From: Hydractinia symbiolongicarpus
Lineage: Eukaryota > Cnidaria > Hydrozoa > Anthoathecata > Hydractiniidae
DNA: 64,000 bases
Direction: 5' to 3'
Assembly: GCF_029227915.1 (NCBI RefSeq)
Contig: NC_079887.1
Coordinates: 21,261,650-21,325,649, forward strand
The position numbers and the translations under genes were made by a program. Every line of letters starts with the position of its first letter. Position 1 is the first letter of the stretch. A model generated the notes under the pieces. That model was not told the origin of the DNA. It searched no databases and saw only the letters and a program-made list of their open reading frames with translations. Shown here one piece after another: positions 35,247 through 64,000 of the stretch.

Positions 35247-35850
35247 TAGACTAGTGATATACGACAGACTGTTTTAGACTAGTCATATCATACGACAGAC
35301 TGTTTTAGACTAGTGATATCATACGACAGACTGTTTTAGATTAGTGATATCGTACGACAGACTATTTTAGACTAGTCATATGATACGACAGACCATTTTA
35401 GACTAGTCATATCATACGACAGACTATTTTAGACTAGTCATATAATACGACAGACTATTTTAGACTAGTGATATCATACGACAGACTGTTTTAGACTAGT
35501 CATATGATACGACAGACTGTTTTAGACTAGTCATATACGACAGACCATTTTAGACTAGTCATATACGACAGACTATTTTAGACTAGTCATATAGGACAGA
35601 CTACTTTAGACCAGTGATATACGACAGACTGTTTTAGACTAGTCATATGATACGACAGACTGTTTTAGACTAGTCATATGATACGACAGACTATTTTAGA
35701 CTAGTCATATCATACGACAGACTGTTTTAGACTAGTCATATGATACGACAGACTATTTTAGACTAGTCATATGATACGACAGACTATTTTAGACTAGTCA
35801 TATCATACGACAGACTATTTTAGACTATTCATATCATACGACAAACTATT
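35247..35850. repeat. 32-bp minisatellite, about 20 copies
   Basis: Unit of about 32 bases: TAGACTAGTCATATGATACG followed by ACAGACTATTTT. The heptamer CGACAGA or a close variant occurs 20 times. Copies vary at TCATATGAT/TGATATCAT/TCATAT and at GTTTT/ATTTT/CATTTT, and a few lack four bases. Each unit contains the palindrome GACTAGTC, often with CATATG. It lies downstream of the read-through stop of the Musashi-like gene, or inside its last intron. Confidence 0.95.
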
Positions 35851-36217
35851 TCATGCAGCAAATCGCCCTGCTAGTCTTCTGGTGACCCCGTGTTTATATT
35901 ACTTTCTGTATTTACTTTTGTCTAGACAGCATGTGTCGGCTTTCCTTGATGTTGCAAGGTAGATATTATTTTCGGCTCAAATTTTTAAAAACATAGATTA
36001 TTATTTAAAAAATCTGGCCTCCATACCTGTTTTCAAGTTTCTACAAAGATCGACGGCCTGTTAATAACATTCTTTTCATAACAATAAGAAGCCGAATATT
36101 GGTGAAATCCATTGCAAAAGTATTTTGCGTTTTCATTTTATATTTGCACTTTTACAGAGTAGCATGCCGTTGTATGAAGATGAAACGTCGCTAGAGAAAA
36201 ATATAGCGTATGCATAA

Positions 36218-43799: not shown

Positions 43800-44395
43800 T
43801 CAGCCCAAAACTAGTTCAACATGTCTCAAACCAAGACTTGAAGATAAACACGTAGCTAAAATGACCCATTGCCATCCAATCGCCTCACATTGCGGTCCAT
43901 TTTATAAGAAATCAATTGAACAAATAAACTATCTAGTGCCTCTTCGTCTTCTTCCATCACTGCTTGTTTAAAAAGCCTGACTTGGTCATACGTAACGGAT
44001 ATTACAAATCTTCATTTGAAGGAGTGGTCAATTTCAGTTCCAATTCCAAAGAAAATAGATATTGTAAATTCATCCTACATGCTTTGATTAAGTTATGGAT
44101 AATAGCAGTTTCTTTAAATTTGTTTCGGGTTAAAAATCTCTAAAAATGCTTTTGAACTCTGTAGTATCTAGTTATTCAGAAATTTACTACTACGAGGGGA
44201 AAAATTTTTGCAGGAAGAAATTTTCGCAATTTCGGAAAAATGTAACTTTTAAGTAAAGTAATTTTTAAGAGCAAATTCAGCAGCAAATTCAAACATTGTA
44301 TGGAGATCGGATTCGTCCTCTAACCATCCACATGCTTTCTCTCGAATGCATTTGTCAAAGTTTTTTGATCGTCTGCTAGCAACTTTGTTTGAATC
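43800..44395 (-). pseudogene. Unrecognised coding relic
   Basis: On the minus strand 44395-44245 reads about 50 open codons (LDSNKVASRRSKNFDKCIRE, then KACGWLEDESDLHTMFEF). The biased, hydrophilic composition looks like real protein. Further on (44080-43830) are shorter pieces such as LELKLTTPSNEDL and WMAMGHF with stops between. I cannot assign a family; given the surroundings it is probably part of a transposon. Confidence 0.3.
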
Positions 44396-44999
44396 TAGGT
44401 CCCTCACCTTCGTCTAAACTGCGACAAAATCAACGCAATTATTGACTCACCCTTCCACATTCATAGCCGAGCATCATTTTTACTTTTTTGTAGCCGCTTT
44501 TCACAGTTTTTTTACAATAATTTTGCTAATGGTTCTGGTTTAAAATGAGTGCTATCGGTGACGCTTCCATCACACAAATAGCAGTTTTCTTTTTAACTGA
44601 ACAACAATACAAGCTTCCATTGCTTCTAGCTTGTGTCTTCGACTGTTTGATAGAGCTTTTTTATGACATGATCCTCTTTCTATTATTATTGTTAACTATT
44701 GTGTATTGATTTAACTATTGTTAAATCATTTTCTACAAAAATCATCAACGCGATGCTTTCTCATCAACTAAACTTAAAACACTATTATTTTCTCTAAAAT
44801 TTGCAAACTCGGCAAGAGATGTTTTTATTGGTTTGTTAGTTTGACCTACTACCTTTCAGATTTACAACAGATAATACATTTACTCAGATTCCGAAGAAAA
44901 GTTTCAAGTATCTTTAGATGTCTAAAAAATCTCTAAAAAACAAACTGTGGTGAACTATGGAACGCCAATGCTGCCTTCTGTGAAATCATTTTTGATAGA

Positions 45000-45210
45000 T
45001 CAATGCGATTGCACGCGAAAAAAGGCTATTCCATTACTCGATAAGCTTGTTCGATTGTCGGTAAATAAGTAATTCGATTATTGATAAATTTGGTTGATCA
45101 TGCGATAAACTTATTTGAATATGGGAAAACTTATTCGATAAAACTTCCTTCAATAAAATGCCTTCAATAAAAACTCACTCGATAAAAATTCATTTCATAA
45201 ATCGACTCAA
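45000..45210. repeat. Degenerate short repeats of ATTCGATAAA type
   Basis: Loose repetition of ACTTATTCGATAAA, TTCGATTGTC, GCGATAAACTTATT, ACTCGATAAAAATTC and similar units over about 200 bases. It abuts the integrase-core relic that follows. Confidence 0.5.
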
Positions 45211-45399
45211 CAGTTTTCGCGACTGTGGTGGCGAATAATAAAGAGGGCGAACAGAAATTTAGAAAGAATGCTTAGGAAAAGTTAAGTCTTTTAAAATATC
45301 AAAATCAGTTGTCTGTAAAGGAAACCCTGGTATTACAGAAAGATATGTGATGAGAGCGTATAAAATTTGGTTTTCAACTTCAGAAGTCACGTTCTATAT

Positions 45400-45990
45400 T
45401 TCATATTTCAAAAGTTTTACTGAAACTTTGATTAATGAAGGATTTACTGTCCGAGAAATAGCGGCGATATTATGTGTATCAAAAAGAATAATAAACGTTG
45501 CAGTAAACACAGATTGAGTATGAGGGACTTCACTATATTAACTCTGAACTTACAATTTTATTTCCCTTTTTTTGTCGAGGTTATGTTAAGGGAACTACTT
45601 AAAAATAACTGACTGTACGTGCAGCAGTTTCGATTAAGGGATAGCATCCATTGAATGAGTAAAGTTGGTGTTAATGCAAGAAAAACAGGAGATTGAGAAG
45701 AAGCGTATACTATGTACAAGGATCAAATCACCGGTGGCACATAGACCCTGATCACAAACTTATTCGTTGGAATTTCATTAATTTTGGTATCATAGATGGT
45801 TTCCGCAGGTTGCCAATTATTTTTCGAGTTTTATGCAAGACTTAACAAGGTTTAGACTCCCAGTAGAGAGCAGTCAGATCAATGCTGGGAAGATGTCACA
45901 GTTGTCGATTTCATGATTAGGACACGTGGTATTGGTAGGGAAAGCATGGTAACTGGTGCGTCAACATACAAACAAAATGGGTACTTTCAA
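45400..45990 (+). pseudogene. DDE integrase-core element relic (HIDGNHKL type)
   Basis: Pieces in shifting frames match a known animal family of zinc-free DDE integrase-core proteins. They are a helix-turn-helix TLINEGFTVREIAAILCVSK (about 45424-45483), the first catalytic Asp block WHIDPDHKLIRW with IIDGFRRLP (about 45735-45820), and the second block RSDQCWEDV, FMIRTRGIGRESM and TGAS (about 45870-45965). The third catalytic block (normally NQRIE) is degraded to YKQN. Many stops and frameshifts are present. In the family these proteins are thought to be transposases; this copy is dead. Confidence 0.6.
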
Positions 45991-46230
45991 TGATATTGAA
46001 CTAACATAGTAATAAAAGCTTAGTAAGTGAAGAGACGCATGGTCAATACACTGAGTGCGAACTATAAGAACATCTCGGTGTGAGAGATATAATTAACGAC
46101 TAGAATGAAACAAACCCAAGACCAATCTACGAATCACCAACACGCACAATAAACGATCCTTAAACAAGTTTCATTAGTAACTTTTTTCAATGGTAAACTG
46201 TAGATTACCAGCTTCAATATTAATCTACAG

Positions 46231-47081
46231 TTTGCCGTAGACACTTTTGAAAACAAAGTACCACACTTCCTAGATATAGAAATTGCACCTGATGGTCTGT
46301 CAATTTTCCGAAAAGACACCAACACCGGCTTGTATACTAATTACAACAGCTATACACCTTGGAATTACCGTAAAACTTGGAAACGAAGCTGAGTTAATCG
46401 TGCAGCTAAAAACTGTTTTCCTAGTAAATTGAAAGTTGAAATTTACCCGATCAAAAGATTTGCGTCATGGAACAATTTTCCACGTCATGCTGTTTACAAC
46501 GCCATTAAATATTCACAAAGAACGCGTCAAAAAGATAAAAAAACAAATGATGAAACTCCTGTTACCACGTTTTGACTCCGCATTCAATACGCTGGCCCTG
46601 TTGGTGAAAAACTACTATCGAACTTAAAACAGAAGATAAAGCATTGTTTTAAAAATAACACTAAAATCAAATTCAAATTACGTACTCGACACAAAAGATC
46701 GCTTTTTACACGAATATAAAAGACCCTACTCCGTTAAAATACAAGCCAAACAAGTTCACTTTTCCTGGTTGATGCTTCATGAATCGGTAAAACAGAACGC
46801 TATCTATACCAAAGATGTAAAGAACGCACCACCACCAAGGAGAGTGCTGTTTACAACCATATGTCGGAGTGCTCTGCTTTGTTATATCTAACACTTTCTT
46901 TACGCTTGGCTTGTCTTGGAATGGTGATACTAACGTAGAAACTGTTAATAACAATACAACAGTTATTGATTCAAGTGATAACAGGTCAACATTGTTAACA
47001 AAAGAAGCATTGTATATAGAACAAGAAAAACCTTTACCTAACAATGGTTTGAAAGCGTCAAGAGATTTATACTCATTTTAA
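46231..47081 (+). pseudogene. Penelope-like element relic (RT C-terminus and GIY-YIG nuclease)
   Basis: 46231-46380 reads FAVDTFENKVPHFLDIEI, FRKDTNTGLYTNYNSYTPW, a signature of Penelope-like reverse transcriptases. Then come RAAKNCFPSKLKVEIYPIKR, FASWNNFPR, and after a frameshift IGKTERYLYQRCKE with SAVYNHMSEC, the core of the GIY-YIG endonuclease. The last part (about 46911-47081) ends LLTKEALYIEQEKPLPNNGL and ASRDLYSF with a stop, like the C-terminus of such elements. Several stops and at least one frameshift are present. The upstream RT catalytic core was not found. Confidence 0.7.
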
Positions 47082-47329
47082 ACGATTTCTTATTGTATAT
47101 ATATAAGATTTTTTAATTACCATTTTAATTACTTTCAAAATTTCTCTTTTGAGAAGAAAAAAGAAAAACTGAACTTTTTTGTAACATTTTATTCTGCTAA
47201 AAGATGGGTTGGATGTAACACGGATATGGTGCCCATCGTTTCCATAAGGAATTTTTATTTTTATTTTTTGTTACTTATTCTATTTTTATTTTTTAATGTT
47301 TAATATCAGTTTTATTTGGAAATAGAACT

Positions 47330-50300
47330 GAAATAAGATGCAATATGGAACTGCTGGATCCCAAATGCTCTATTAGGCTTAATGTTCCTAAAGAATCCCT
47401 AGATGCCCACAAATCTTCCGTGTTAGTTGATCCCTGATATGAGATACTGCTTTTGACTCTTCCTGGTTTGCCTAATGCTCTTCTTTTCAACCTTTTCCAA
47501 TCTTGTTTGAAGAATTCCTACATTCGTGTTCAGTGGAGGGTCGCTTTAGAAGTTTATATCCTTAAAACAAGCCTCCATCTCCATCATCCATTAAGGACTT
47601 TCGGCCAATAGCTCTCCTCTATGTGGAAGGAAAACTTTTTTTTTCAGTCTTGTGTCAAAGCGCCTAGAAAACCACATTATTCAGAAAAACCCCTTTATTA
47701 ACAAATCCATTCAAAAAGGATGTATGGAAAAAGTTCCCGGTTGCTGGGAGCATATGTCTCTTGTCTGGGCTGCTCTGAGAAACGCCAAGTCTAGAAAAAA
47801 TACACTATCTGCAATATGGCTTGATGTGGCGAATGCGTATCCCACTTTACCGCTTAAACTCATTTTCATGCCCTTCGTCGCTATGGTGTTTCAGAGTCAT
47901 GGGTAAGGCTTATTAACACCTACTGTGGCAGCCTCTGGAGCAAGTCATTCTCTTTTACAGCCTCATCCAGCTGGCACCAACACTTTAGAGGTATTTTTAT
48001 TGGATGTACATTATCAATCATACTATTTTTGGCAGCTATAAATGTAATCATTGAATATGTGTGCGCCGAAGAAAAGGTAAAAAGTTGTGTTCCGCCTGGC
48101 GATTCAGACCATCCTCCGGTTAAGGCCTTTATGGATGACATATTTTTAATGTCTTCAAGTGTCCCTTAAACTAAAAACTTGTTGGATCGTTGTGTAACAG
48201 CCCTTCATTGGGCTGGAATGTGCTTTAGACCTTCAAAATCACGAAGCATTGTTATAGCTAATGGAAAAGTTTTAGATCAGTCTCCTTTTTGTGTCCTGCA
48301 AGAGCCAATCCCATCTATTCACGCAAACCCAGTTGAGTTTCTTGGCCGGACGATAAATTCAACATTGTCAGATTCAGCTGTTGTCCAACAGGTTATTGTT
48401 AACGCTGTAGAGCAAGTCAAACTCATAGATAAGTCTTCCCATAGAGGCATTCACAAAGTGTGGTTTTTGCATCATCTTCTAATTCCCCGAATACGACGGC
48501 CTTCTTTAATTTACGAAGTTCCGATATCTCGTATTGTTTTACTAGAACAAAAGTTTTCTTTCTTCATAAGAAAGTGGCTGAGACTCCATCACTCTATTTC
48601 TAAAATAAGTTTGTATTCCGCTTCACCGCCATGCCCGTTACCTTTAAAAAGTCTATCCTCTGTACTAAAATCTGCTAAGATCAGCGGTCATCTTCTCCTC
48701 TGAGATTCGGCTGATCCTCTAGTCTCAGACTCTCCTCCAGACTGGAAGGTAGATCAAACAGTAAAATCAGCAGAGAGTCAACTCGAGTTCAAGAAAATAC
48801 TTGGTTTCCACCAGTTTGGTAGAGCAGGCTTGGGACTGGTAAGCCATAAGAGTGTCCCAGCAATTGGTACCCATTCTTACCGCAAACTTGTATCAGATGT
48901 TGTGCAGGATAATGAGGAAGACATCTATTATGCTCGAGCCGTTCAGCTTCATGTCCAAGGTAACTGGACTAAATAGTGCTCGTTTATTAAATACGATCTT
49001 TCTTGGAAGAACATACTGTCTCTGCCGCAAAGTTTATCTTCGTTTTGCATCGGCGCAACCTATGACACGCTTCCTCCTACAAATCTTGTCAAGTGGGGAA
49101 TTCAAAATGACAAAAGTTGCACCCTATGTAAAAAACCCTCTTGTAACGTGTCCCACATTTTAGGCGCTTGTAAATTAGCCCTTTCACAAGGTAGATTCAC
49201 GTACCGCCACGATACTGTTCTATGTGTGTTAGTGACAGCCATTCAGAAGTTCTTATCCGATTATGAGCCAGCAAAACCGTCTAGATGTCATAAAATATCC
49301 TTTGTTCCAGCTGGTAAACGTCTTCCCACCAAAAGGCGTTCAAAAATTCAAGGTATCCTTCACCTGGCCTCTGATTGGAGATTATTGTCAGACTTAGATT
49401 CAACCTTAATAGTACCACCTTATCTTGCTGTAACGCAACTTCGTCCGGACATACTTTTAACTTCTGCCATGACCAAAACTGTAATTATCCTTTGAATTAA
49501 CTTGCCCATGCGAAGAGAACATGGAGACTTGGAATGGAGTTAAGGTTGATAAATACTCGTCACTTTGTTCCGTCATGAGATTAAACAATTGGTCTGTGCA
49601 TTTCTTTGCTGTTGAAGTAGGAGCTAAAGGATTTTGTTCCGAAACAGTTAGTCTGCCCCGTCGCCTCAGCTTTTCTAACATGTCTGTGCGTTCCACTCGG
49701 AAATCCCTTACTGAGTCATCTATGCGATCGTCGTTTTACATCTGGCTATCTCGAGATTCTTTGTCTTGGATTCATCCTGGTAGGGATCCACAGCATACCG
49801 CTCAATTGATACCAACTGTCTCAAAGAAATCATCCAAGTCACAAGCAACTTCGACCACTAGCTTTAAGGACACGAATCCCCAGGGAGTAACATAGAGCTC
49901 CACTACCTTGCCTGCACAAGAATCACTAGGCAGCAACAGCGGCTTGCTAAATTTGGGCAACACATGTTACATCAATTCCATCTTGCAATGTTTTTATGTG
50001 TTACCTGCAGTCGCCACAGCCATCTCTGCAAATGATTCCAATATGCCGATAGGTAAAAGTTTTGTAAGTATTCTACGCAAACTATCCTCCTCCAAGGTTC
50101 CAGTGAACACTTCTTCATTTCTAAATGCATTAAAAGGCCATGTTTCTAATGCAAGGGGTGCTGCTTTTAATCCGTTCTCTCAGCAACATGCCCTAGAGAT
50201 TCTTGAGTATCTCATACCAGAGTTGTCCTTAGCCTTTCCTTTCTTTGGTAGATTATTCAACACTCGTGTGAAAATCTGCACTACTTGCAGCGCTTGCAAT

Positions 50301-50801
50301 AATATTAGCACCTCTAAGCAAGTAAGTCCATTTCTTCAACTGCCCTTGACATTGACTGTACAATCTTCAATAGATAACTTTTTGGAGAGCGAAGAATTGT
50401 CAGGTGTCAACTCGTACTTCTGTCACTACTGCAATAGTTACCAAACTGCAACAGTTGAAAAAGAGGTCGCAGAGTGCAGTTCAATTTTGGTTCTGCAATT
50501 AAAGCGCTTTGCCTATAACAAAGGTCATGTGTCTAAGGTTTGTTCGCCTGTCACATCTTACCCGGGCACCGTTTCTATACCTATCACTGTAGACAGTGAA
50601 GTCTCCTGTCGCAAGCACTACAACTTAAGGGCTGTAATTAACCACTACGGAAATTTGTACAATGGCCATTACACTACTATTGCTTATAACCAAGTGCATG
50701 GTAAGTGGTTTTATTGCAACGACAGAGCAGTGGTCCCTTGCAAACAAAGCTTGCTTAATGGTGTACAACCTTACATCCTTTTCCTTAAAGAGGTTAGGTA
50801 A
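47330..50801 (+). pseudogene. RLE-type non-LTR retrotransposon ORF: RT, zinc knuckle, endonuclease, then USP domain
   Basis: One long protein can be followed. N-terminal RT part: VALEVYIPK and DFRPIALLYVEGKLFF (about 47540-47640), motif A IWLDVANAYPT (about 47815), WHQHFRGIFIGCTLSIILFL and catalytic AFMDD (48125-48139). Thumb: FRPSKSRSIVI, FLGRTINSTLSD and GIHKVWFLHHLLIPRIR. Then knuckle CTLCKKPSCNVSHILGAC, endonuclease signature RPDILL...VIILELTCP (49442-49510) and VEVGAKGF, and finally the USP domain. Breaks: frameshifts near 47640 and 47870, TAA 48167, TGA 48701, TAG 48974, one extra T at 49491-49493, TAG 49893. No 5' ORF or promoter seen, so the copy looks 5' truncated. The order RT, C2HC, PD-ExT nuclease is that of early-branching, site-specific type non-LTR elements; the USP extension is unusual. 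Confidence 0.8.
49908..50801 (+). CDS. Ubiquitin-specific protease (USP/UCH) domain carried by the retrotransposon
   Basis: 297 open codons coding for a complete USP fold, a cysteine protease removing ubiquitin. Cys box GLLNLGNTCYINSILQCF with catalytic Cys codon 49965-49967; zinc ribbon CTTCSAC and YFCHYCN (two CxxC pairs); VLQLKRF; His box GNLYNGHYTTIAYN with catalytic His codon 50667-50669; KWFYCNDRAVV with the third catalytic residue at 50721-50723. It ends PYILFLKEVR. The open frame begins at a TTG, not an ATG, and is in the same frame as the endonuclease part upstream, separated only by TAG 49893-49895. I therefore read it as the C-terminal domain of the retrotransposon protein, not an independent gene. 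All expected catalytic and zinc residues are present, in contrast to the decayed RT. A captured, processed host USP fragment is the alternative. Confidence 0.85.
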   Translation: MPAQESLGSNSGLLNLGNTCYINSILQCFYVLPAVATAISANDSNMPIGKSFVSILRKLSSSKVPVNTSSFLNALKGHVSNARGAAFNPFSQQHALEILEYLIPELSLAFPFFGRLFNTRVKICTTCSACNNISTSKQVSPFLQLPLTLTVQSSIDNFLESEELSGVNSYFCHYCNSYQTATVEKEVAECSSILVLQLKRFAYNKGHVSKVCSPVTSYPGTVSIPITVDSEVSCRKHYNLRAVINHYGNLYNGHYTTIAYNQVHGKWFYCNDRAVVPCKQSLLNGVQPYILFLKEVR

Positions 50802-50835
50802 ATTGCAGTCAGCACCACAACTTCCGGCTTATGTC

Positions 50836-51236
50836 AGCAAGGGGGTTTGACTATTCTTTTTTTCTTTTTTTTTTCTTTTTTTTTTGTAGTCTTTGGAGAG
50901 TGACGACTCCACTTACTACCCCAGTCAAAATAAAATCGAAAAACAAAAAAAATTACGCCAGCAAGGGGGTTTGACTGTACCAGGTCCTATCTTTGGAGAG
51001 TGACGACTCCACTTATTACCCCAGTCAAAAATAAAACAAAATCAAATAAAAATTAAGTTAGCAAGGGGGTTTGATCATAGTAGGTCTTGTCTTTGGAGAG
51101 TGACGACTCCACTTATTATACCAGGTAAAAAAAACAAAAAAAATATTGGCAGGGGGGTTTGATCACACATGATCTTGTCTTTGGAGAGTAACGACTCCAC
51201 TTATTACATGAGTTAAAAACAAAGAGTAGCACAGTT
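50836..51236 (+). repeat. Four tandem ~90-124-bp repeats in the element's 3' UTR
   Basis: Monomers start at about 50836, 50960, 51060 and 51150 with AGCAAGGGGGTTTGA (the last begins CAGGGGGGTTTGA). Each contains CTTTGGAGAGTGACGACTCC followed by ACTTATTA and an A-rich spacer. GAGT-GACG-ACTC is a 4-bp hairpin with a tetraloop, kept in all four copies (GAGT-AACG-ACTC in the last). The repeats start 35 bases after the USP stop. Repeated, structured 3' UTRs are common in non-LTR retrotransposons, where reverse transcriptase recognises them. Confidence 0.85.
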
Positions 51237-51239
51237 GAA

Positions 51240-51320
51240 CAGAAACTTTATTTACACCCACCGTCCCTGTAGACAAGATACTTCAGTGCAGCTTGCTGTA
51301 TTGTAAACCTTTTATTGATG
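51240..51320. repeat. Block shared with 59862-59940
   Basis: TTTATTTACACCCACCGTCC, CTGTAGACAAGATACTTCAG and TGCAGCTTGCTGTATTGTAAAC here match TTTATTTACAACCACCGTCC, CTGTAGACAAGATGTTTAG and TGCAGCTTGCCGTATTGTAAAC at 59862-59926. The two blocks are 8.6 kb apart in the same orientation. Confidence 0.85.
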
Positions 51321-51569
51321 ACAGTTGACAAAGAAACTTCATGTATCAATATTGGAGCTCTTAGGGTCTAGTAAATTTTTGCCAGCCTGATAGGGATGTA
51401 TTATATCGAACGAAATTTGACTCGACCCTGCCATGATGATAAAATGAAATGAAATATATTTCCAGCCTAAAATAAAAAATAAGATACAAAATCTACCGTT
51501 AGAAAAATATCGTTCGTGACAATAAGAAAGCAAATAAATGTTACTTTACTACGGAGGCCAAGGAGTGCC

Positions 51570-51872
51570 AATCCGAATTTCTCGTTAAATCCGAGTTTCA
51601 TGTTAAATCCGTATTTCAAAATTACAGAATCAACATTTCAAAGTTCAAATCCGCATTTCAATGATCAAATCCGGATTTCGAAGTTCAATTCCATATTTCA
51701 ATGTTTAAATACATTTTTTATAGTATAAATCCGCATTTCAATGATCAAATCCGCATTTCAAATTTGCAATCTTCATTAAAGTTCAAATCCGCATTTCAAA
51801 GTTCAAATCCGCATTTCAAAGTTCAAATCCGCATTTCAAAGTTTAAATCCGCACTTCAAAGTTCACATTTTA
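51570..51872. repeat. 20-bp satellite repeat
   Basis: About fifteen units of AAATCCGCATTTCAAAGTTC. The last four at about 51783-51862 are nearly identical; the left ones are diverged and some are disordered. The array ends about 60 bases before the start of the integrase-core pseudogene. The open frames across it are repeat artefacts. Confidence 0.9.
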
Positions 51873-51932
51873 AAATCGCTATATTATAATCATATGGCCT
51901 AATGGGGAAGGTGACTGTGAGATAATTCAGAA

Positions 51933-53148
51933 ATGTTTTGCCATCATTGCGGAAAAGAATTAGGAAAGGATGACTTGTTTTGTGGTAGTTGTGGTACTAT
52001 AAGGAAAGGAAATAATTGTATTGAGTCGTGTTCAGAACAGCAGCTTATAACAACATGTTTACAACGTGGAATCCCATACGAAGAAATTATTTAAATTTTG
52101 AAAAAGCAAAATTCTATCGTAATGAGTCTTCGCACATTTAAAAGACGTTTACAAAGTTGCGATTTAAGTAAATCTGATTACAGTAAATTCAATCAACCTA
52201 ACAATCTCATTCATTCTGAGCTTCAGAAATCAGGTCCTTCGTCACAAATTGGTTATCGTAGTATATGGAATAAACTGAGGACAACGTATGGGTTAAATAT
52301 TCCACGGGATACTTTAATGAACATACTTAGAGAGCTTGATCCGGATGGCTGTAAAAAAGGAAGTGTCGAAGATTAGACAGGCGAGTTTATCGTTCTGATG
52401 GACCTACTACTACATGGTATACGGACGGGTATGATAAACTAAAGCCGTACGGCTTCCTAATACATGGCTGTGTAGATGGGTTTTCCAGAAATAATTTGTG
52501 GTTAAGGGTAGTAAGGTCAAATAATGCTTCAGCTCTACTTGCAAGTCTATTCATTCAAGCAATTCAGACCTTAGAATATCGTCCTAAAAGCGTTCAAATC
52601 GACTGTGGTTTTGAGAACGCAAAATTAGCAGCTTTACAGTGTGCGCTAGCTGACAAATTAGAATTTCATAGCTATGGCTCATCTCATTCAAATCAACGAA
52701 TTGAAAACTTTTGGAGTCATTTTTGAAGGGGCTACTTAAATTGGGTAATAAATTTTTTCAAAGAAATAGTATCAACTAGACGTCTCAAACTAGTCCATCA
52801 TGTTTATACGGAATGTTTGCTTTGTGTTCTCGAAATCTCTGCAACAGGAACTAGACACAATGTCGGAGGAATGGAATAATCATCAAATTAGAGCATCGAA
52901 ATTTGCTCAAGTTTCCGGAATTCCAGATCACCTCTTTAATTTCCCCGAAATAAATGGATTTGAAAGGATTTGAAAACCAAGGAATTAAAGTTGATTGCGA
53001 AGACATTAGGCATTTATTAGAAGAGGTTGACATACATAAAGAAGCATTAAATTTCGACGACCATTATTTGCATACTTCTCGCATTACAAAGGAAAATTTG
53101 TTATATCCATCAAAGAGTTGGCAAAATGCTTTACATATTTTTTTGTAA
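51933..53148 (+). pseudogene. Zinc-ribbon plus DDE integrase-core transposase-like gene, decayed
   Basis: From ATG 51933 the frame reads a zinc ribbon (MFCHHCGKELGKDDLFCGSC), then EQQLITTCLQRGIPYEEI and a stop (TAA 52092-52094). Next come MSLRTFKRRLQS, GYRSIWNKLRTTYGLNIPRD and LRELDPDG, then a one-base deletion in the A run near 52356. The catalytic core continues: WYTDGYDKLKPYGF (first Asp) with HGCVDGFSRNNLWLRV, QIDCGFENAKLA (second Asp), and SNQRIENFWSHF (Glu), followed by TGA 52724-52726. After more shifts near 52830 and 52965, LDTMSEEWNNHQIRASKF, GIPDHLFNFPEINGF and a C-terminal part reach a stop at 53148. This is an animal integrase-core family (retroviral-integrase fold) often found as single-exon transposon genes. 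The D-D-E residues are all still visible although the frame is broken four or five times. Confidence 0.75.
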
Positions 53149-53706
53149 TCATTGAACGCTGTGAATGTTAAGAAGATATTACCTTGTAACGATATACTGT
53201 TGTTGTTTAGGTGCATTCACTAGTGAAATTTGAACAAACCACTTTGGCTGTAAAAAGTAATTTGTTAGTGGGGTAGAAAATTAGAACATACTAAATTTTT
53301 TATTCCACTTGGAAATATTTTTTTCTTTATCGCAGTGTTTTTATCCTCTATCTATCTGTATATATATAAAAAAATAATAAAAATAAAAGTAAAGAATAAA
53401 CTAATGTGAGATATGCCGTCATTTTTTTTAAAGTCCAAGGTAAACAATATTTACATTCACTTCTGAGCAAAAGATTAAAACTAGCTACTAGTTAGGGAAA
53501 AATTTAAACAAAACAAGCATAACAGAAACGAATTTTTTAATCTTAGTTAAAATTACGTTAACTACCATGATAACATATTTGTTTAGGCTCAATCCATATA
53601 TAACCAAATAAAAAAGCACTATAAGTAAAAACTTACCCTATTAAAATATATCCAATATATAGATGACAAAAAGATTTGCAACAAAACAGAAAAAGAAAAT
53701 AACATT
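53149..53706. other. AT-rich spacer, nothing recognised
   Basis: No open frame with family similarity, no clear repeat. It separates the plus-strand integrase relic from the minus-strand E3-like fragment. Confidence 0.5.
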
Positions 53707-54670
53707 TCAGTCCCTAAGATCTTCCAAAACCAAAGTCCATTGAAATTGCACCAATAATATTCTGCCATCTTTTTCTTCGCAATCTATGTGCGTGGGAAAT
53801 GTGACATGTGTGTCCACTTCAGCTTCTCCAATGAATATTATGTTGTATAGGCAGCCAGGCTCGTTCCATTTTTTATTGAAGAAGGACACAAAATCAGCAA
53901 AACTATGCTCTTCGTACATGTATTGAAAGGTCGGTGTTACGACTGATCTTTGCTTACTGTAATGCTGAGTGGATTTTAATTAAAACATCCTCGTCTTTTA
54001 ATATAGGGTTTTCTGTTTGTTCCTCTTCCATTCCTGTATTCAAATTTTGATTCTCATCTTCGGAATAAAATACTTTCTGTTCTCGTAATACATGCATTTA
54101 CATGTTGCTCAATAGATGAAGCAGGGTGTTGTTTATTACAAACTGGGCATAACACTCCAGCTGTTTACTTCCATGCAAAAAATCTGAGAATATACTATCA
54201 ATGTTATCTGAAATGTTGGGTAAAAGATCGTCAAACAGATTTTCATTACAAGTATCCACAGATGGTGATGCTTGTGTTGATTTAGTTGGCAACAATGGTT
54301 TATTTTCAATTGCGTCGACTACATTACTTATAGATGATAAACTTTGTTGAGCATCATTTACTTTATCATCATAGAAGGATGCAGCAAGGTGTAAATATAG
54401 ATCAATTTTCGAAAATGGTTTTGCAAGTTCAGTTTTATACTTTTCCACGGTAAATAGGACAATGGATTCAGGAATAGTAATAACTTTTTTTTAGTCAGAA
54501 TATAGCAGAACATAGGTATCTAAACCACAAAAAAATTGGTCATGGTTCGAATGTTTATTAACTGTTTCAGCCAGTACCTTACTAGCAGCAAATGATTTTA
54601 GTACTTTAACGGGCAGTCTGCTACCTCGTACAATTGCTAAACCATTGCTGGACTCAGAAATAATGCCAAC
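53707..54670 (-). pseudogene. G2E3/HECT-type E3 ubiquitin ligase-like fragment
   Basis: Read right to left: GLAIVRGSRLPVKVLKSF, AETVNKHSNHDQFFCGLDTY, VLLYSD, stop, KKVITIPES, then 116 open codons (54448-54098) beginning VEKYKTELAKPFSKIDLYLH and continuing with an acidic Ser/Asp-rich linker. After a stop come ENPILKDEDVLIKIHSAL and, from 53919, YEEHSFADFVSFFNKKW, IIFIGEAEVDT. The first block matches the ubiquitin-like N-terminal region of many cnidarian G2/M-phase E3-ligase-like proteins. The last matches the beginning of a HECT domain (F-x-G-E-x-x-x-D), after which homology stops, so the catalytic Cys lobe is missing. Two stops plus truncation indicate a pseudogene. Assignment is from memory of the family pattern. 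Confidence 0.5.
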
Positions 54671-56010: not shown

Positions 56011-57110
56011 CCATCATGTGTAGACAGTCTTTGACAAAATCTTTAAAAAGTACAGGTGTATCACAAAATGTTGTGAAAATAAAGTAGCCTATTATTTTTT
56101 ATATCCATTTGGTCAAAAAGGACCGGATACGTACGAAGAGTTGATGGTGTCAATGAAAGTGGCTGGTGTCTTGCGGAAGGCAGGGAATGCTTACTCGAAG
56201 GATCGCACCTCGTGTTTCCAGGTGTTTCTTTCCATACAGCCGAAATCTATAAGCTTTCCGGTAAACCCTCTAAAGGAGAGAATACAAAATTTCTCTAGTG
56301 AAACCTCTTTTTTTTTTATTAAACTCTCCGTCTTAAACGCTAAATTTAATTATACGCTCACCATCAGGGCTAACCAGCCACAATCTATATTTATCAAAAT
56401 ATGACTCATTCTTTCCTCTTCATCTTTACTTCCGTCAATATCTTCAGTTCTGCGATCTAAAAGCAAAAGACTTTGAAAGTTAAAGTGTGTACTTTTTATA
56501 CATACGTAAAATAAAGTAGAGCCTGTTCTACCAACATTAAGCATATAAAATAAAAACTGTGCTATTTTTTCCCGATAAGATTAATTACTTTACAGAAAAA
56601 AATGCCTCAAGCACATATTTGTGAATACTAAAATATTGAATGGCTAAAATAATATAATGCTATAAATTTTTCTAATTAAAAAAGTTTTTACGGCTGAAAT
56701 GATTTAACTATTTACCAATTTACCTACGGAATATTTTTTTGTGGAAAATTTACAAGAAGGACAAACCACCATTCTGATAAATATTTAATAGTTTCTTCTA
56801 AATAAAAATTGCCCAAATAATTTTTCCTTCGAAAGAAAATTCTGCTTAGTGTTAAGGTTAATAAAGTTATTAAATATAAAAATCCTGTCTAAATGTTACA
56901 TGGAAAACATGTACAAAATAAATGTTGTATTTTTATTTATACACGTCAAGCTCCAATAAATGCCCAATCCTTAACCCTTTTTTATATTATAGAGGATATT
57001 GTCCAAGAACCACCACTGCCTGTTTAAAAAGAATGGATTTTCACCAACAAACTTGCTTATTCCACTGCAAATGATCTCAGTAAAATCAGTGTGAGGTCTT
57101 CTTTTGTATG
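56011..57110. other. No supported gene
   Basis: AT-rich DNA without recognisable protein motifs. Small open frames at 56141-56404 (plus) and 56544-56350 (minus) overlap each other and resemble no family. Confidence 0.4.
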
Positions 57111-57366
57111 GCTGGCAGATGAATCCAATGTTTAGTCAACTGACCCTTTAATGCAATTACCCAAAACCAAGCAGGCTTTGCCCAATGTTGAGACCAAGGG
57201 TGTTTCATCTCGCCAAAACGAGCCATATAAAAAGGTTAGCCAAAATAAAAATGACACTCAATCAATTAGTGTCTATAAAAACATCGTTTTTTTAAACAAA
57301 GGCAACACTTGTTACGCCAACGCTATTTTGCAAGTATTAATTACCATTCCAACACTCTGGTGCTAG
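57001..57366 (+). pseudogene. Second USP-domain fragment (Cys box only)
   Basis: The frame around 57000-57140 reads KISVRSSFVWLADESN, then a stop, then 71 open codons (57151-57366) of polar linker ending in VFLNKGNTCYANAILQVL and TIPTLW, then TAG. GNTCYANAILQVL is the catalytic-Cys helix of a USP. Homology ends within the next few residues, so the zinc ribbon and His box are absent. The protein upstream is a linker unlike the endonuclease part preceding the USP at 49908, so this is a different USP lineage or a different host element. Confidence 0.6.
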
Positions 57367-59500
57367 AGTGGGTCAATCATTTCACTTCTCACCTATTACG
57401 AGGTCTATTTCGGTTAACATGGTGAAGCTAAAAGAATAGTTATAGGTCCAAGTTGGACAGTACTCAATTGTTATGTGTCACCAAACAGTTTCTTCTTGCC
57501 TTTTGCCTAGTGTACATAAAAGCACTTTTTTTTGCCTAGTGTACATAAAATTTTATCAAATTATTGCAGTCCAGATTTGTATTGACGTTTTAGGGTTATA
57601 TTAATGTCGTTACTAACATCATTGTTCAAATAACAAGCTCATAAACATTGATTGAAAGCAAAAAATGTTTTTTTTTGCATAAGCGTCAGATGAAAAATAA
57701 ATTCGTCCGATTTCATTAACATCTCTGCTTAACCTAATCTCTGACAGTGCACTTTTAAAAGTAATATTTTTGGTTTACTTGTTAATTGTAAATAGAAAGT
57801 AGGATTAGATTATTTCTTTAACTCCAGTGCGTCTTACTTCAAGAAGAAAGTAATTAGCATGACAGTGAATATCAACCCTTCATTTTTTAAACACGCAAAA
57901 CAGCGTATGTTAACAAATCTCCAATTAACAAAGTTAATAATTTTCTTACTAGTTTTACTTTTCCTTTTTTTTTGCTAACGTTTTGCGAAAAACAATCTTT
58001 ATCGCTGCTATCATCCGAATTCACAGGCAACATATGTTTGGCACCTTTGAAATTCGTCATTTTACCATTCCACATGGTCCTGTTTTCCTCTTCATATTTA
58101 CTGCTTTCGCTGCATTACTTGTCGCACTACCTTTACTTGAACCATTTTAGCAGTAAATTCCTGATGAGAAATTGACTGTTTGGGAGCAGCCGAACAAACA
58201 CGTTTGAGCAGCCCAGCACAGAGAAATATTTTTCTGTAAAGCCGAGCTTTAGTTTTCCCTTCCTCATTTGCCAATCATTTTAATTTGTTAATTAAACTGA
58301 TTTCACTTTTGTAACTTTTAGCACTCTCTTCTGTTATGTGATGTACGCGAACAAGATAAACAACTAAATTAGTTTTCTCTTGAAAGCAGATTGGACACTT
58401 AAACACTTTTTGTTTTCGTTTTTGTGGCCCTAACGACTATTAGTTACGCTAGTTTCTAATATTAACTAAAACAAAGGTGAATTCCTTTCCTTTATTGCTT
58501 CAGGTAGATTTCCACTCCGAATTAACTGACACAATCTGTCTGCTACGTTCAAATCCTTTAATATTAAGTACTTTATAAATATTCTTAACAGATAAATAAC
58601 ATATCAGTAGCAAATAAAGCAAATGAAATAAAAATACAGATTTGATAAAGGAAATGGTTTTGTTATTACCTTTCTGGTAGTACTTTCTTGTCGTTTCACT
58701 CTTGTTTTCATTGGCGTCTTTGGAAACCGGTTATCCTGAAAAACATATGTAAAACATTTAAACATTGTGGTGTATTAGTGCTCTCGCGCTCTTTGTTGAA
58801 ATGTCGTTACCCCTTGAAAGTTCCACGAGAGATCGCCGTTTTACATAATTTCCACATTTTTATTTCGCGCACCCTTGCCCTGCCTGTTAGAACGTAGTAA
58901 GAAAATTTGCTACGATGGGGTTATTACTATGATTATAACAAGTATTATAATATAGATTATTTTGTTAGTAACATGGAAAAACAGAAACATTGTAAATCTT
59001 TGATAAAATATCACCACAGTTTGGCGCCAAAAGAAATAGATAATGAGAACCTCTAAAATGACCTCAAATTGCTTTATTTTTAGGTGCGTGTTTTCCATTG
59101 CTAAGTACGAAAATAGCACAGCAATTTTTTAACAGAGATAAAAAAGAATATTACGTATACAACCAGCTTAGTTCCATTACAAAGCATCACGATCAGTGTA
59201 ACATAGGAAAGAGCGTTGTCCGAATCTTGCTTTTCTTGGTTATTTAGTACCTTTGACAGTGTAACCCTTTGCGGTCTAATTGTAAACATGGTTAATCTGA
59301 GTCATAATTCACACAAGCAAAAGTTTTCAAAATCATATATAAAGATAGAGTCGATAAATGTAGATACAATTCGCAATTTTCTATGATAGTGAGTTTGTAA
59401 TTAAAGTTAACAACAAGTGCGTATATGTAAAGACAAACTACCCGGGTAGATGTATTAATATGTCCTCCTTTTCAATGACATAATTTTACAAAACCTGTTA
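57367..59500. other. No supported gene; contains one block repeated near 59775
   Basis: AT-rich and without family motifs. About 57431-57467 (AGAATAGTTATAGGTC ... ACAGTACTCA) resembles 59774-59810 (GGAATAGTTATTGGTC ... ACAGTACTCA), about 30 of 37 bases identical by eye. Confidence 0.4.
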
Positions 59501-59509
59501 ACGCTTCTG

Positions 59510-59942
59510 CCACCTACCTTTTACGCCAGTTTAGTAAGGTGCCCAATACTAACTTGGCCTTCAAGCTTGACAACCCTACTGTCCTTGGTCAAAATATCTA
59601 CAGCCTGGTTCCATCAGGACAACCTCCTGTGTAAGGCTAAGTGTTGGAGCCTGTAACACATGGAAAGCTACAGCCAGAGTTACAAGTTCTGGCGCAGAGA
59701 TCTGTAACCACTCCCGTTTATATTGTTAGCTCTGTCGGGTGTAGTATTGTTTGAGAAAATTATTTTCTCAAGGAATAGTTATTGGTCTATGTAGCACAGT
59801 ACTCATGCTTGTAAGAAGCAAGAAAGTGTATTCAGCACCTTTTTCTGTGAGCCTAATCCCAGTTTTATTTACAACCACCGTCCCTGTAGACAAGATGTTT
59901 AGTGCAGCTTGCCGTATTGTAAACTTTATTCATTATTTGTGA
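59510..59942 (+). pseudogene. Unrecognised element fragment sharing its end with the USP retrotransposon flank
   Basis: Open pieces read ATYLLRQFSKVPNTNLAF, KLDNPTVLGQNIYSLVPSGQ and, after stops, LFSQGIVIGLCSTVL, SAPFSVSLIPVLFTTTVP. The pieces are protein-like but I recognise no family. The last 65 bases are the block also found at 51240-51310, and about 59774-59810 repeats 57431-57467. It is probably the 3' part of an element that includes the USP fragment at 57151, or a sister of it. Confidence 0.35.
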
Positions 59943-63225: not shown

Positions 63226-64000
63226 CTAGTAAATTAATAATGACCAGCGGATTCTGGGAATTAACACATGGTGTAAAAACCAAACCTTATGGACCCCTTT
63301 ATGAAAGGACCTGTCTATAGCCATAAGTTTGTCTTCAGCATCATTTAGAAATTCTTGTAATGCAGCAGAATCAGACAAGGATGAGTTAATGGTTTTGCCT
63401 AAAAACATAATTGGATTAGAATAAATGGATGAAATTTTTTCGCTGCCAACTTTAAACGGTGAACTTTGGACGACTTTTCCCTTATCAATAACAATGCTGC
63501 GTGATTTAGAAGGCCTAAACGACATGCCTATCCAATCAAGAGTTGTTGTACACCTGTTTAATAAATTTTAAGTACTTGGAATTGACGTGGACATTAAGAA
63601 TATATCATCCATAAAAGCTTTTATTGGGGGTTGGTCGGGGATTTTGTTTTTATTACCTTCAGTATCAATAAGGCTGGGGGTAACACACACGTACTCAATA
63701 ATAACGTTTATAGCTGCAAGAAATAGTATAATGAAAAGTGTACAGCCGATAAAAATTCCCCTACAGTGTTGATGCCAACTGGATGGAGCAGAAGCCGAAA
63801 AAGACTTACTCCACAGGCTGTCGTAGTATAGCTGTATGAGCCCTATCCAGGATTCTGGTACACAATAGCGTCTGAGAGCCATAAAAATCAGCTTGTGCGG
63901 AACTGAGGGGTACGCATTAGCAATATCAAGCCATGTGGCTGAAAGTGAAGTATGTTGTGCCTTCGCATTCTTAAGTGTGGACCAAACATGAGACATGTGT
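63226..64000 (-). pseudogene. Second copy of the RLE-type reverse transcriptase (partial, runs off the edge)
   Basis: On the minus strand from the window end: MSHVWSTLKNAKAQ, motif A TWLDIANAYPSVPHKLIFMA, LRRYCVPESWIGLIQLYYDS, WHQHCRGIFIGCTLFIILFL, catalytic AFMDDIFLMSTSIPST, stop (TAA), then after about 40 bases MSFRPSKSRSIVIDKGKV, FLGKTINSSLSDSAA and GVHKVWFLHHVLIPRIRW. It ends abruptly at LLIY near 63226, about where the copy at 47330 continues with EVPIS. The two copies are clearly the same family but diverged and carry different stop codons. No endonuclease or USP part is present here, so the association of USP with the family cannot be tested with this copy. Confidence 0.8.

Follow-up and report, generated by a model that had tools for sequence, protein, structure and literature searches.

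A 64,000-nucleotide window of the Hydractinia symbiolongicarpus genome (contig NC_079887.1, positions 21,261,650 to 21,325,649; "the window" denotes this whole stretch) holds a decayed copy of a non-long-terminal-repeat (non-LTR) retrotransposon. It belongs to a lineage in which a reverse transcriptase (RT), a C2HC zinc knuckle, a restriction-like endonuclease (RLE), a linker and a ubiquitin-specific protease (USP) domain follow one another in a single protein. USPs are the largest deubiquitinase class. There is next to no doubt about the architecture RT-RLE-USP in one protein, and we propose, with confidence that stands at about even, that this protein carries a predicted active deubiquitinase that would remove ubiquitin from the complex that the element's protein forms with its RNA and thus guard that complex against proteasomal destruction.

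A protein lineage joining reverse transcriptase, endonuclease and USP

Two large protein searches, of which the best 120 of 655 and the best 120 of 210 matches were used, together yielded 224 proteins from many sources, in which domains were called with pieces of the 1435-amino-acid (aa) protein P0002 as probes. RT was found in 131 of these listed proteins, RLE in 133 and USP in 171, and all three were present in at least 78. The order RT, RLE, USP held in 78/78 three-domain proteins, and RLE preceded USP in all 86 proteins with both domains, separated by a linker with a median length of 64 aa (range 40-461, n = 86). The three-domain proteins are 650-2,151 aa long; 58 of the 78 are near-complete for all three domains (1,085-2,151 aa, median 1,447). 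The expectation of the sequence-only reading, made from the letters of the window, that multiple copies would carry RT, RLE and USP in one protein was thus borne out among these proteins.

The residues that characterize the RT-RLE part are strongly conserved. Counts refer to 66 relatives labelled as USP carriers in the RT+RLE tree described below, a label extended to rows that have just the beginning of a USP and to P0154, P0186 and P0194, which were assigned by eye after being missed by the P0002 probe. The RT Asp residues at three sites were present in 66/66, the RLE residues P in 65/66 and D, E, K and Y each in 66/66, and the knuckle positions C/C/H/C in 66, 64, 66 and 66. With a profile of 12 relatives, the RT region matched three R2 chains at E values of 1.1e-32, 2.3e-32 (R2Tg) and 6.5e-30. 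Judged by these sequence features, an RT of the R2 kind followed by a C2HC knuckle and a predicted PD-(D/E)xK-like endonuclease, the lineage answers the definition of an RLE-type non-LTR retrotransposon. A Pfam scan (E up to 0.01) of P0002, P0128 and P0030 returned UCH, UCH_1, RVT_1 and zf-RVT, the last below its cut-off; neither Ulp1 (PF02902) nor Helitron/PIF1 helicase domains were found in these three, and only P0039 among seven scanned proteins has the helicase domains. A 12-protein alignment compared with viral_contigs (6 stretches) and genome_contigs (47 stretches; prokaryotes) gave no confirmed relative. Two RT-USP proteins, P0142 and P0191, are filed under 'MAG: Pseudomonadales bacterium'; our guess is that they represent eukaryotic DNA binned into a bacterial genome.

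The USP domain is conserved where it matters for catalysis. In 77 rows (76 relatives and the window copy) whose USP match covers both ends, so that strongly decayed USPs are uncounted, the catalytic Cys and His were present in 77/77 each and Asn or Asp occupied the third position in 71/77, the window copy having C/H/N; the four zinc-ligating Cys were conserved in 76, 77, 77 and 77 rows. An aromatic residue follows the catalytic His in 78/78, consistent with a USP that cleaves ubiquitin conjugates: in the excerpted text of one study, this residue has a tested role in binding ubiquitin Gly-75 and excluding larger side chains (PMC7391069). A USP fold with zinc ribbon was recovered, with a confident prediction for the window's own domain, and from these sequence features intact members probably possess deubiquitinase activity. 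The RLE+USP model of P0236 reached a mean predicted local distance difference test (pLDDT) score of 81.8 and a predicted template modelling score of 0.56, with the RLE mostly at 78-92 and the USP mostly above 84; residues 202-238 between the two fell below 50, the appearance expected of a flexible tether in such a model. A PDB fold search with this model returned only USPs among the 50 best rows and is therefore uninformative on the RLE fold. The long forms P0146, P0147, P0156, P0157, P0158 and P0159 (1,818-2,151 aa) have RLE-USP linkers of more than 100 aa, and P0146, P0147, P0156, P0159, P0160 and P0179 have Ser as their third catalytic residue; catalysis may differ in subgroups of these proteins.

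The copy in the window and its relatives in Hydractinia

The sequence-only reading had described RT motifs, a C2HC knuckle, an RLE signature and a full USP in this order, which the family profiles and the motif positions confirmed. In tblastn comparisons homology sets in at about 47315-47348, which corresponds to residue 212 in P0026, a Hydractinia protein of 1051 aa, and to residue 230 in P0002; the copy is thus 5'-truncated. The element, its parts and two further copies are arranged as follows.

47348-51240, + strand: decayed, 5'-truncated RT-RLE-USP non-LTR retrotransposon copy (tblastn of P0026 and P0002, family profiles, 3' tail; 3' border approximate)
47560-48169, + strand: remains of the reverse transcriptase over three frames (profile matches in frames 1, 3 and 2)
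48170-48976, + strand: C-terminal or connecting part of the RT, with in-frame stops at 48701-48703 and 48974-48976 (open reading frames; profile match 47864-49513)
49118-49171, + strand: C2HC zinc knuckle CTLCKKPSCNVSHILGAC (zf-RVT 2.9e-5, below cut-off; conservation in relatives)
49172-49754, + strand: restriction-like endonuclease, RPD...ELT...K..KY, with a frameshift near 49490 (profile in frame 2 to 49513 and in frame 3 at 49485-49754)
49755-49940, + strand: RLE-USP linker of about 62 aa, with an in-frame TAG at 49893-49895 (open reading frames; family linker lengths)
49941-50792, + strand: USP (peptidase C19) domain (Cys 49965-49967, His 50667-50669, Asn 50718-50720, four zinc-ribbon Cys)
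50799-50801, + strand: stop codon of the USP reading frame (open reading frame listing)
50802-51240, + strand: 3' tail in which a 100-bp unit recurs about 3.3 times in tandem at 50890-51207 (repeat analysis)
57061-57369, + strand: second, more decayed copy, consisting of the RLE C-terminus, linker and USP Cys box in one frame with one stop (profile, blastp)
63226-63999, - strand: third copy, represented by its RT part and interrupted where the window ends (profile 3.8e-105; 66% DNA identity to the main copy)

With a profile derived from 105 relatives, RT and RLE of the main copy gave a match at 47864-49513 in frame 2 (2.6e-206), with additional matches at 47637-47870 in frame 3 (1.3e-38), 47560-47661 in frame 1 (8e-10) and, for the C-terminal part of the RLE, 49485-49754 in frame 3 (3.9e-28). 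Pfam matches were weak, with RVT_1 at 0.017 for the piece 47858-48166 and the zf-RVT hit likewise below its curated cut-off. The FMDD motif of the RT was read from the translation at about 48128-48139, and the RLE signature RPD...ELT lies at about 49442-49502. The RT is spread over three frames, contains in-frame stops and, as read from the alignments, lacks a stretch present in P0026. The claim that the USP is in frame with the endonuclease holds only for the C-terminal part of the RLE, because the frameshift separates RPD (frame 2) from ELT (frame 3), and the TAG precedes the USP. The 3' repeats, which had been called structured, do form a tandem array with an 18-nt hairpin, TGGAG-N8-CTCCA, in each of four units, but the whole tail folds no better than shuffled sequence (z +0.98). 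No Rfam family matched in 44000-54000, and the 64-kb window contains no tRNAs.

The second copy gave a USP profile match of 8.2e-10 at 57289-57369 and blastp matches spanning its RLE-USP junction (P0167, 1.7e-15; P0122, 2.1e-14). A search with the USP alone yielded 45 proteins, four of which are H. symbiolongicarpus gene models: P0226 (93% identity over 71% of the query), named ubiquitin carboxyl-terminal hydrolase 17-like protein 6; P0228 (87% over 60%) and P0229 (67% over 89%), both named ubiquitin carboxyl-terminal hydrolase 50; and P0227 (81% over 83%), named ubiquitin carboxyl-terminal hydrolase 20-like. P0226 starts within the RLE, just upstream of ELTCPCEEN, and P0228 and P0229 start in the last part of the RLE, which the USP then follows. 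The suspicion that the USP might be a lone insertion therefore fails, as these three models join the RLE C-terminus to the USP and the window contains a second such junction. The NCBI models in Hydractinia present RT and USP as separate genes, and several look broken. Judged by their sequences, P0226-P0229 are pieces of the RT-RLE-USP retrotransposon, a warning for the annotation of genes under these '17-like', '20-like' and '50' names. In the pairs P0227/P0026, P0229/P0029 and P0226/P0134, USP model and RT model lie on contigs of equal length, which suggests a shared chromosome; with 40% identity to the reading from the window, P0134 is too distant a copy to be the missing half of P0226.

Several further features were noticed in the window. 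A 54-base repeat, 91% identical between 51247-51300 and 59864-59916, adjoins the 3' tail of the element with its first occurrence and could be a dispersed repeat that received the insertion. Directly downstream of the element lies a fragment of an integrase-core protein (52355-52726, + strand; Pfam rva_4, 3.3e-19). An array of a 31-bp unit (35259-35851, 19.5 copies, 92% matches) has no relation to the element.

History and possible role of the USP domain

The RT+RLE tree, a quick tree of 116 rows from which proteins with fewer than 330 of 391 RT positions were excluded, separated 28 USP-less rows as an outgroup clade (26 "none", meaning that the protein ends within 60 aa of a complete RLE, and 2 cut) from an 88-row clade with a Shimodaira-Hasegawa-like approximate likelihood ratio support of 100, which contains 66 USP, 13 none and 9 cut rows. 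When 44 rows were selected (10 of them outgroup) and a careful tree was computed, the same pattern appeared with support 100/100. An arrangement with the USP carriers as one side excluding the USP-less members was rejected (approximately unbiased test, p-AU 0.00025, 44-row tree), which leaves a gain plus a loss, or two gains; one gain and one loss may be the course with the fewest steps on these sequences, two gains costing equally many changes.

RT+RLE and USP identities were correlated across 59 proteins (Pearson 0.84, Spearman 0.75, 0/999 permutations), in a Mantel test that ignores shared ancestry within subclades. The anticipated agreement of the USP and RT trees was accordingly seen in this correlation and in the placement of the USP carriers within one RT clade, but only 27 of the 59 proteins have the same nearest neighbour in both parts, and that clade also holds a USP-less subclade. 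The median pairwise identity is 0.27 for the family USPs, with values as low as 0.18, and 0.48 for RT+RLE.

In a quick USP tree of 163 rows, from which 10 retrotransposon rows less than 70% filled were dropped, the host group was defined as every row with a USP match and without RLE, other than P0039 (84 rows). Of these, 83 form a group distinct from the retrotransposon USPs. One side of a starred branch holds 63 retrotransposon rows and P0039, and the window USP sits inside a starred 21-row set consisting entirely of retrotransposon USPs. A careful tree of 51 rows picked to span the former (25 of 78 retrotransposon rows, 25 of 84 without RLE, and P0039) recovered 23 of the 25 retrotransposon USPs together with P0039 as a clade (98/99), and placing all retrotransposon USPs on one side was not rejected (p-AU 0.48, 51 rows). 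The domain in the window is no ordinary host USP gene: the USP is joined to an RLE in 86 proteins, the window USP groups with retrotransposon USPs, and among the matches listed the best host USP, Hydra USP8 (P0035), scored 2.5e-20 at 23% identity against 6.5e-100 for the best family member, P0001, so that an exon-by-exon alignment to a host gene, a possible objection, does not hold.

P0039 (1866 aa, on a 6261-base contig) combines Helitron_like_N, PIF1 and a C-terminal USP (UCH 3e-33). Its USP falls on a long branch within the retrotransposon USPs in two trees (neither placement was rejected: p-AU 0.48 when held with them, 0.27 when held apart), and an exchange of USPs between classes of mobile elements is possible on this basis.

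Protection of the element's complex in cis is proposed here because the USP is physically fused to the retrotransposon protein, because other transposons carry ubiquitin-system proteases and because the same proposal has been made for Helitron VTD. The retrotransposon protein would bind its own RNA in cis, host ligases would ubiquitinate it, the tethered USP would remove the ubiquitin, and the complex could persist long enough for the target to be nicked and cDNA synthesis primed. Copying would proceed by target-primed reverse transcription, by analogy with R2; we infer that ubiquitin and no other modifier is what the USP cleaves, with the element's own complex as substrate. That cis-protection is the main role of the USP remains a tentative view, somewhat short of an even chance. 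If it is true, ubiquitin limits retrotransposition enough that elements carry their own remedy.

A number of observations weigh against this proposal. The copy in the window is dead, with a USP that deviates from a near-invariant Asp. Ser occupies the third catalytic position in 6 of the 77 rows. Among the 13 rows of the 88-row clade classed as "none", 12 form a single nested USP-less clade (the thirteenth, P0135, is placed among USP rows; it stops 44 aa past the RLE and is perhaps truncated), and the USP is thus dispensable for copying as such. As this clade copies without it, the USP activity is accessory; we would guess that the dependence on it varies with the host, and the USP-less clade offers a natural control for the role of the USP. 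The USP may also have other substrates, such as histones, repair proteins or SUMO-like modifiers. As to origin, the starred branch leaves 15 of the 78 retrotransposon USPs on the same side as the host group, which they adjoin, and in the careful tree P0172 and P0185 (2 of 25) fall among host USPs; a single capture is at most compatible with the sequence trees.

Among the alternatives, the one that fares best, though we think it rather unlikely, is that the USP works at the insertion site on chromatin or on repair factors; by deubiquitinating histones or repair proteins, it would keep the nick accessible and unrecognized as damage. Placed behind the RLE in 86/86 proteins by a linker with the above median length, the USP would sit at the cut, and the excerpted Ginger paper proposes that ULP1 and OTU act on repair during transposition (PMC2836005). 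However, fold searches rank general USPs (USP2, USP21, USP46) first, the SAGA histone deubiquitinase is outside the 50 best rows although it is a sequence match to the USP (8.4e-19), and the USP-less clade manages without the domain. Slightly less favoured is a combined scenario in which a cellular USP was captured once, was kept active and, tethered by the endonuclease at the nick, would clear ubiquitin from nucleosomes or repair factors as well as from the element's own complex, its stock having been passed to or from a Helitron (P0039).

A trans-acting weapon against host defence, deubiquitinating restriction or signalling factors throughout the cell as viral deubiquitinases do, appears less likely still. 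The faster divergence of the USP relative to RT+RLE could indicate an arms race, and other transposons have taken up unrelated ubiquitin-system proteases, but relaxed constraint could also explain the divergence, and the C-terminal domain of a multi-enzyme, presumably cis-preferring protein would make an inefficient weapon in trans. It is very improbable that the domain rides along as passenger cargo, a USP acquired from a host in one capture and drifting since: the window copy and several Hydractinia models do look broken and one clade lacks the domain, yet drift would not preserve the catalytic and zinc residues to the extent given above at USP identities down to 0.18. An artefact can be dismissed almost outright, since, despite the RLE frameshift and the stop before the USP in the window copy and the separate annotation of RT and USP in Hydractinia, a host USP gene beside an RT element is rejected by the second junction at 57061-57369, the three Hydractinia models that span the junction and the correlated RT-USP divergence, and an assembly chimera by the 58 near-complete three-domain proteins.

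Relation to known systems

In R2 the order is RT, zinc knuckle and RLE, as in the lineage described here, and the RT regions align (R2Tg open reading frame 9dou, at the E value given above; 9nl2 and 9nl3). We know of no R2 protein with a USP, and the lineage differs from R2 by about 280 aa of USP after the linker. The USP-less outgroup P0197-P0224, including P0216 and P0218 from Branchiostoma belcheri, presumably corresponds to the elements known as HERO. Across the RT region it shows 37-41% identity to P0002, and it shares the order RT-knuckle-RLE, but 26 of its 28 proteins end 2-18 aa after the RLE, without a USP (P0204 and P0216 have no RLE match). The human enzymes USP2, USP21, USP46, USP8 and USP15 share fold and catalytic boxes with the lineage USP; they are host enzymes, with about 20-30% identity to it in structure alignments. 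R2, as a relative of this lineage, is discussed for gene insertion in the abstract of PMC13188248.

No description of a USP in a non-LTR retrotransposon was found among the matches listed from the open-licence PMC literature, a scope outside which Repbase Reports lie. Related arrangements are known. According to excerpts of PMC4640811, NeSL and Utopia-1_TSP are RLE-type non-LTR retrotransposons with a Ulp1-like cysteine protease, and they resemble the lineage in combining such an element protein with a protease for ubiquitin-like modifiers; their protease is of the Ulp1 class and N-terminal, whereas ours is of the USP class (C19) and C-terminal, behind the RLE. Helitron and Helentron elements encode VTD and OTU deubiquitinases, for which the excerpted report makes the same protective proposal (PMC9741609), but these are rolling-circle DNA transposons with VTD/OTU and not a retrotransposon with a USP; fish Helitron2 with deubiquitinase-like domains is known to us from a title cited in PMC7599744. 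Ginger1 transposons with a C-terminal OTU or Ulp1, and a Trichomonas protein that combines transposase_11 with Peptidase C19 (XP_001314237.1), likewise attach a ubiquitin-pathway protease to a transposition enzyme, in the Trichomonas case also of class C19; as far as the excerpts of PMC2836005 extend, these are DNA transposases, only one protein is named for C19, and none is a retrotransposon.

A transposon with a ubiquitin-system protease is thus a known kind, and the USP class within a retrotransposon, its C-terminal place and the lineage itself appear to be new. To judge from these excerpts, mobile elements took up unrelated ubiquitin-system proteases repeatedly (Ulp1, OTU, VTD and one C19 with a transposase), and a broad, deeply diverged lineage of USP-bearing retrotransposons lengthens that list.

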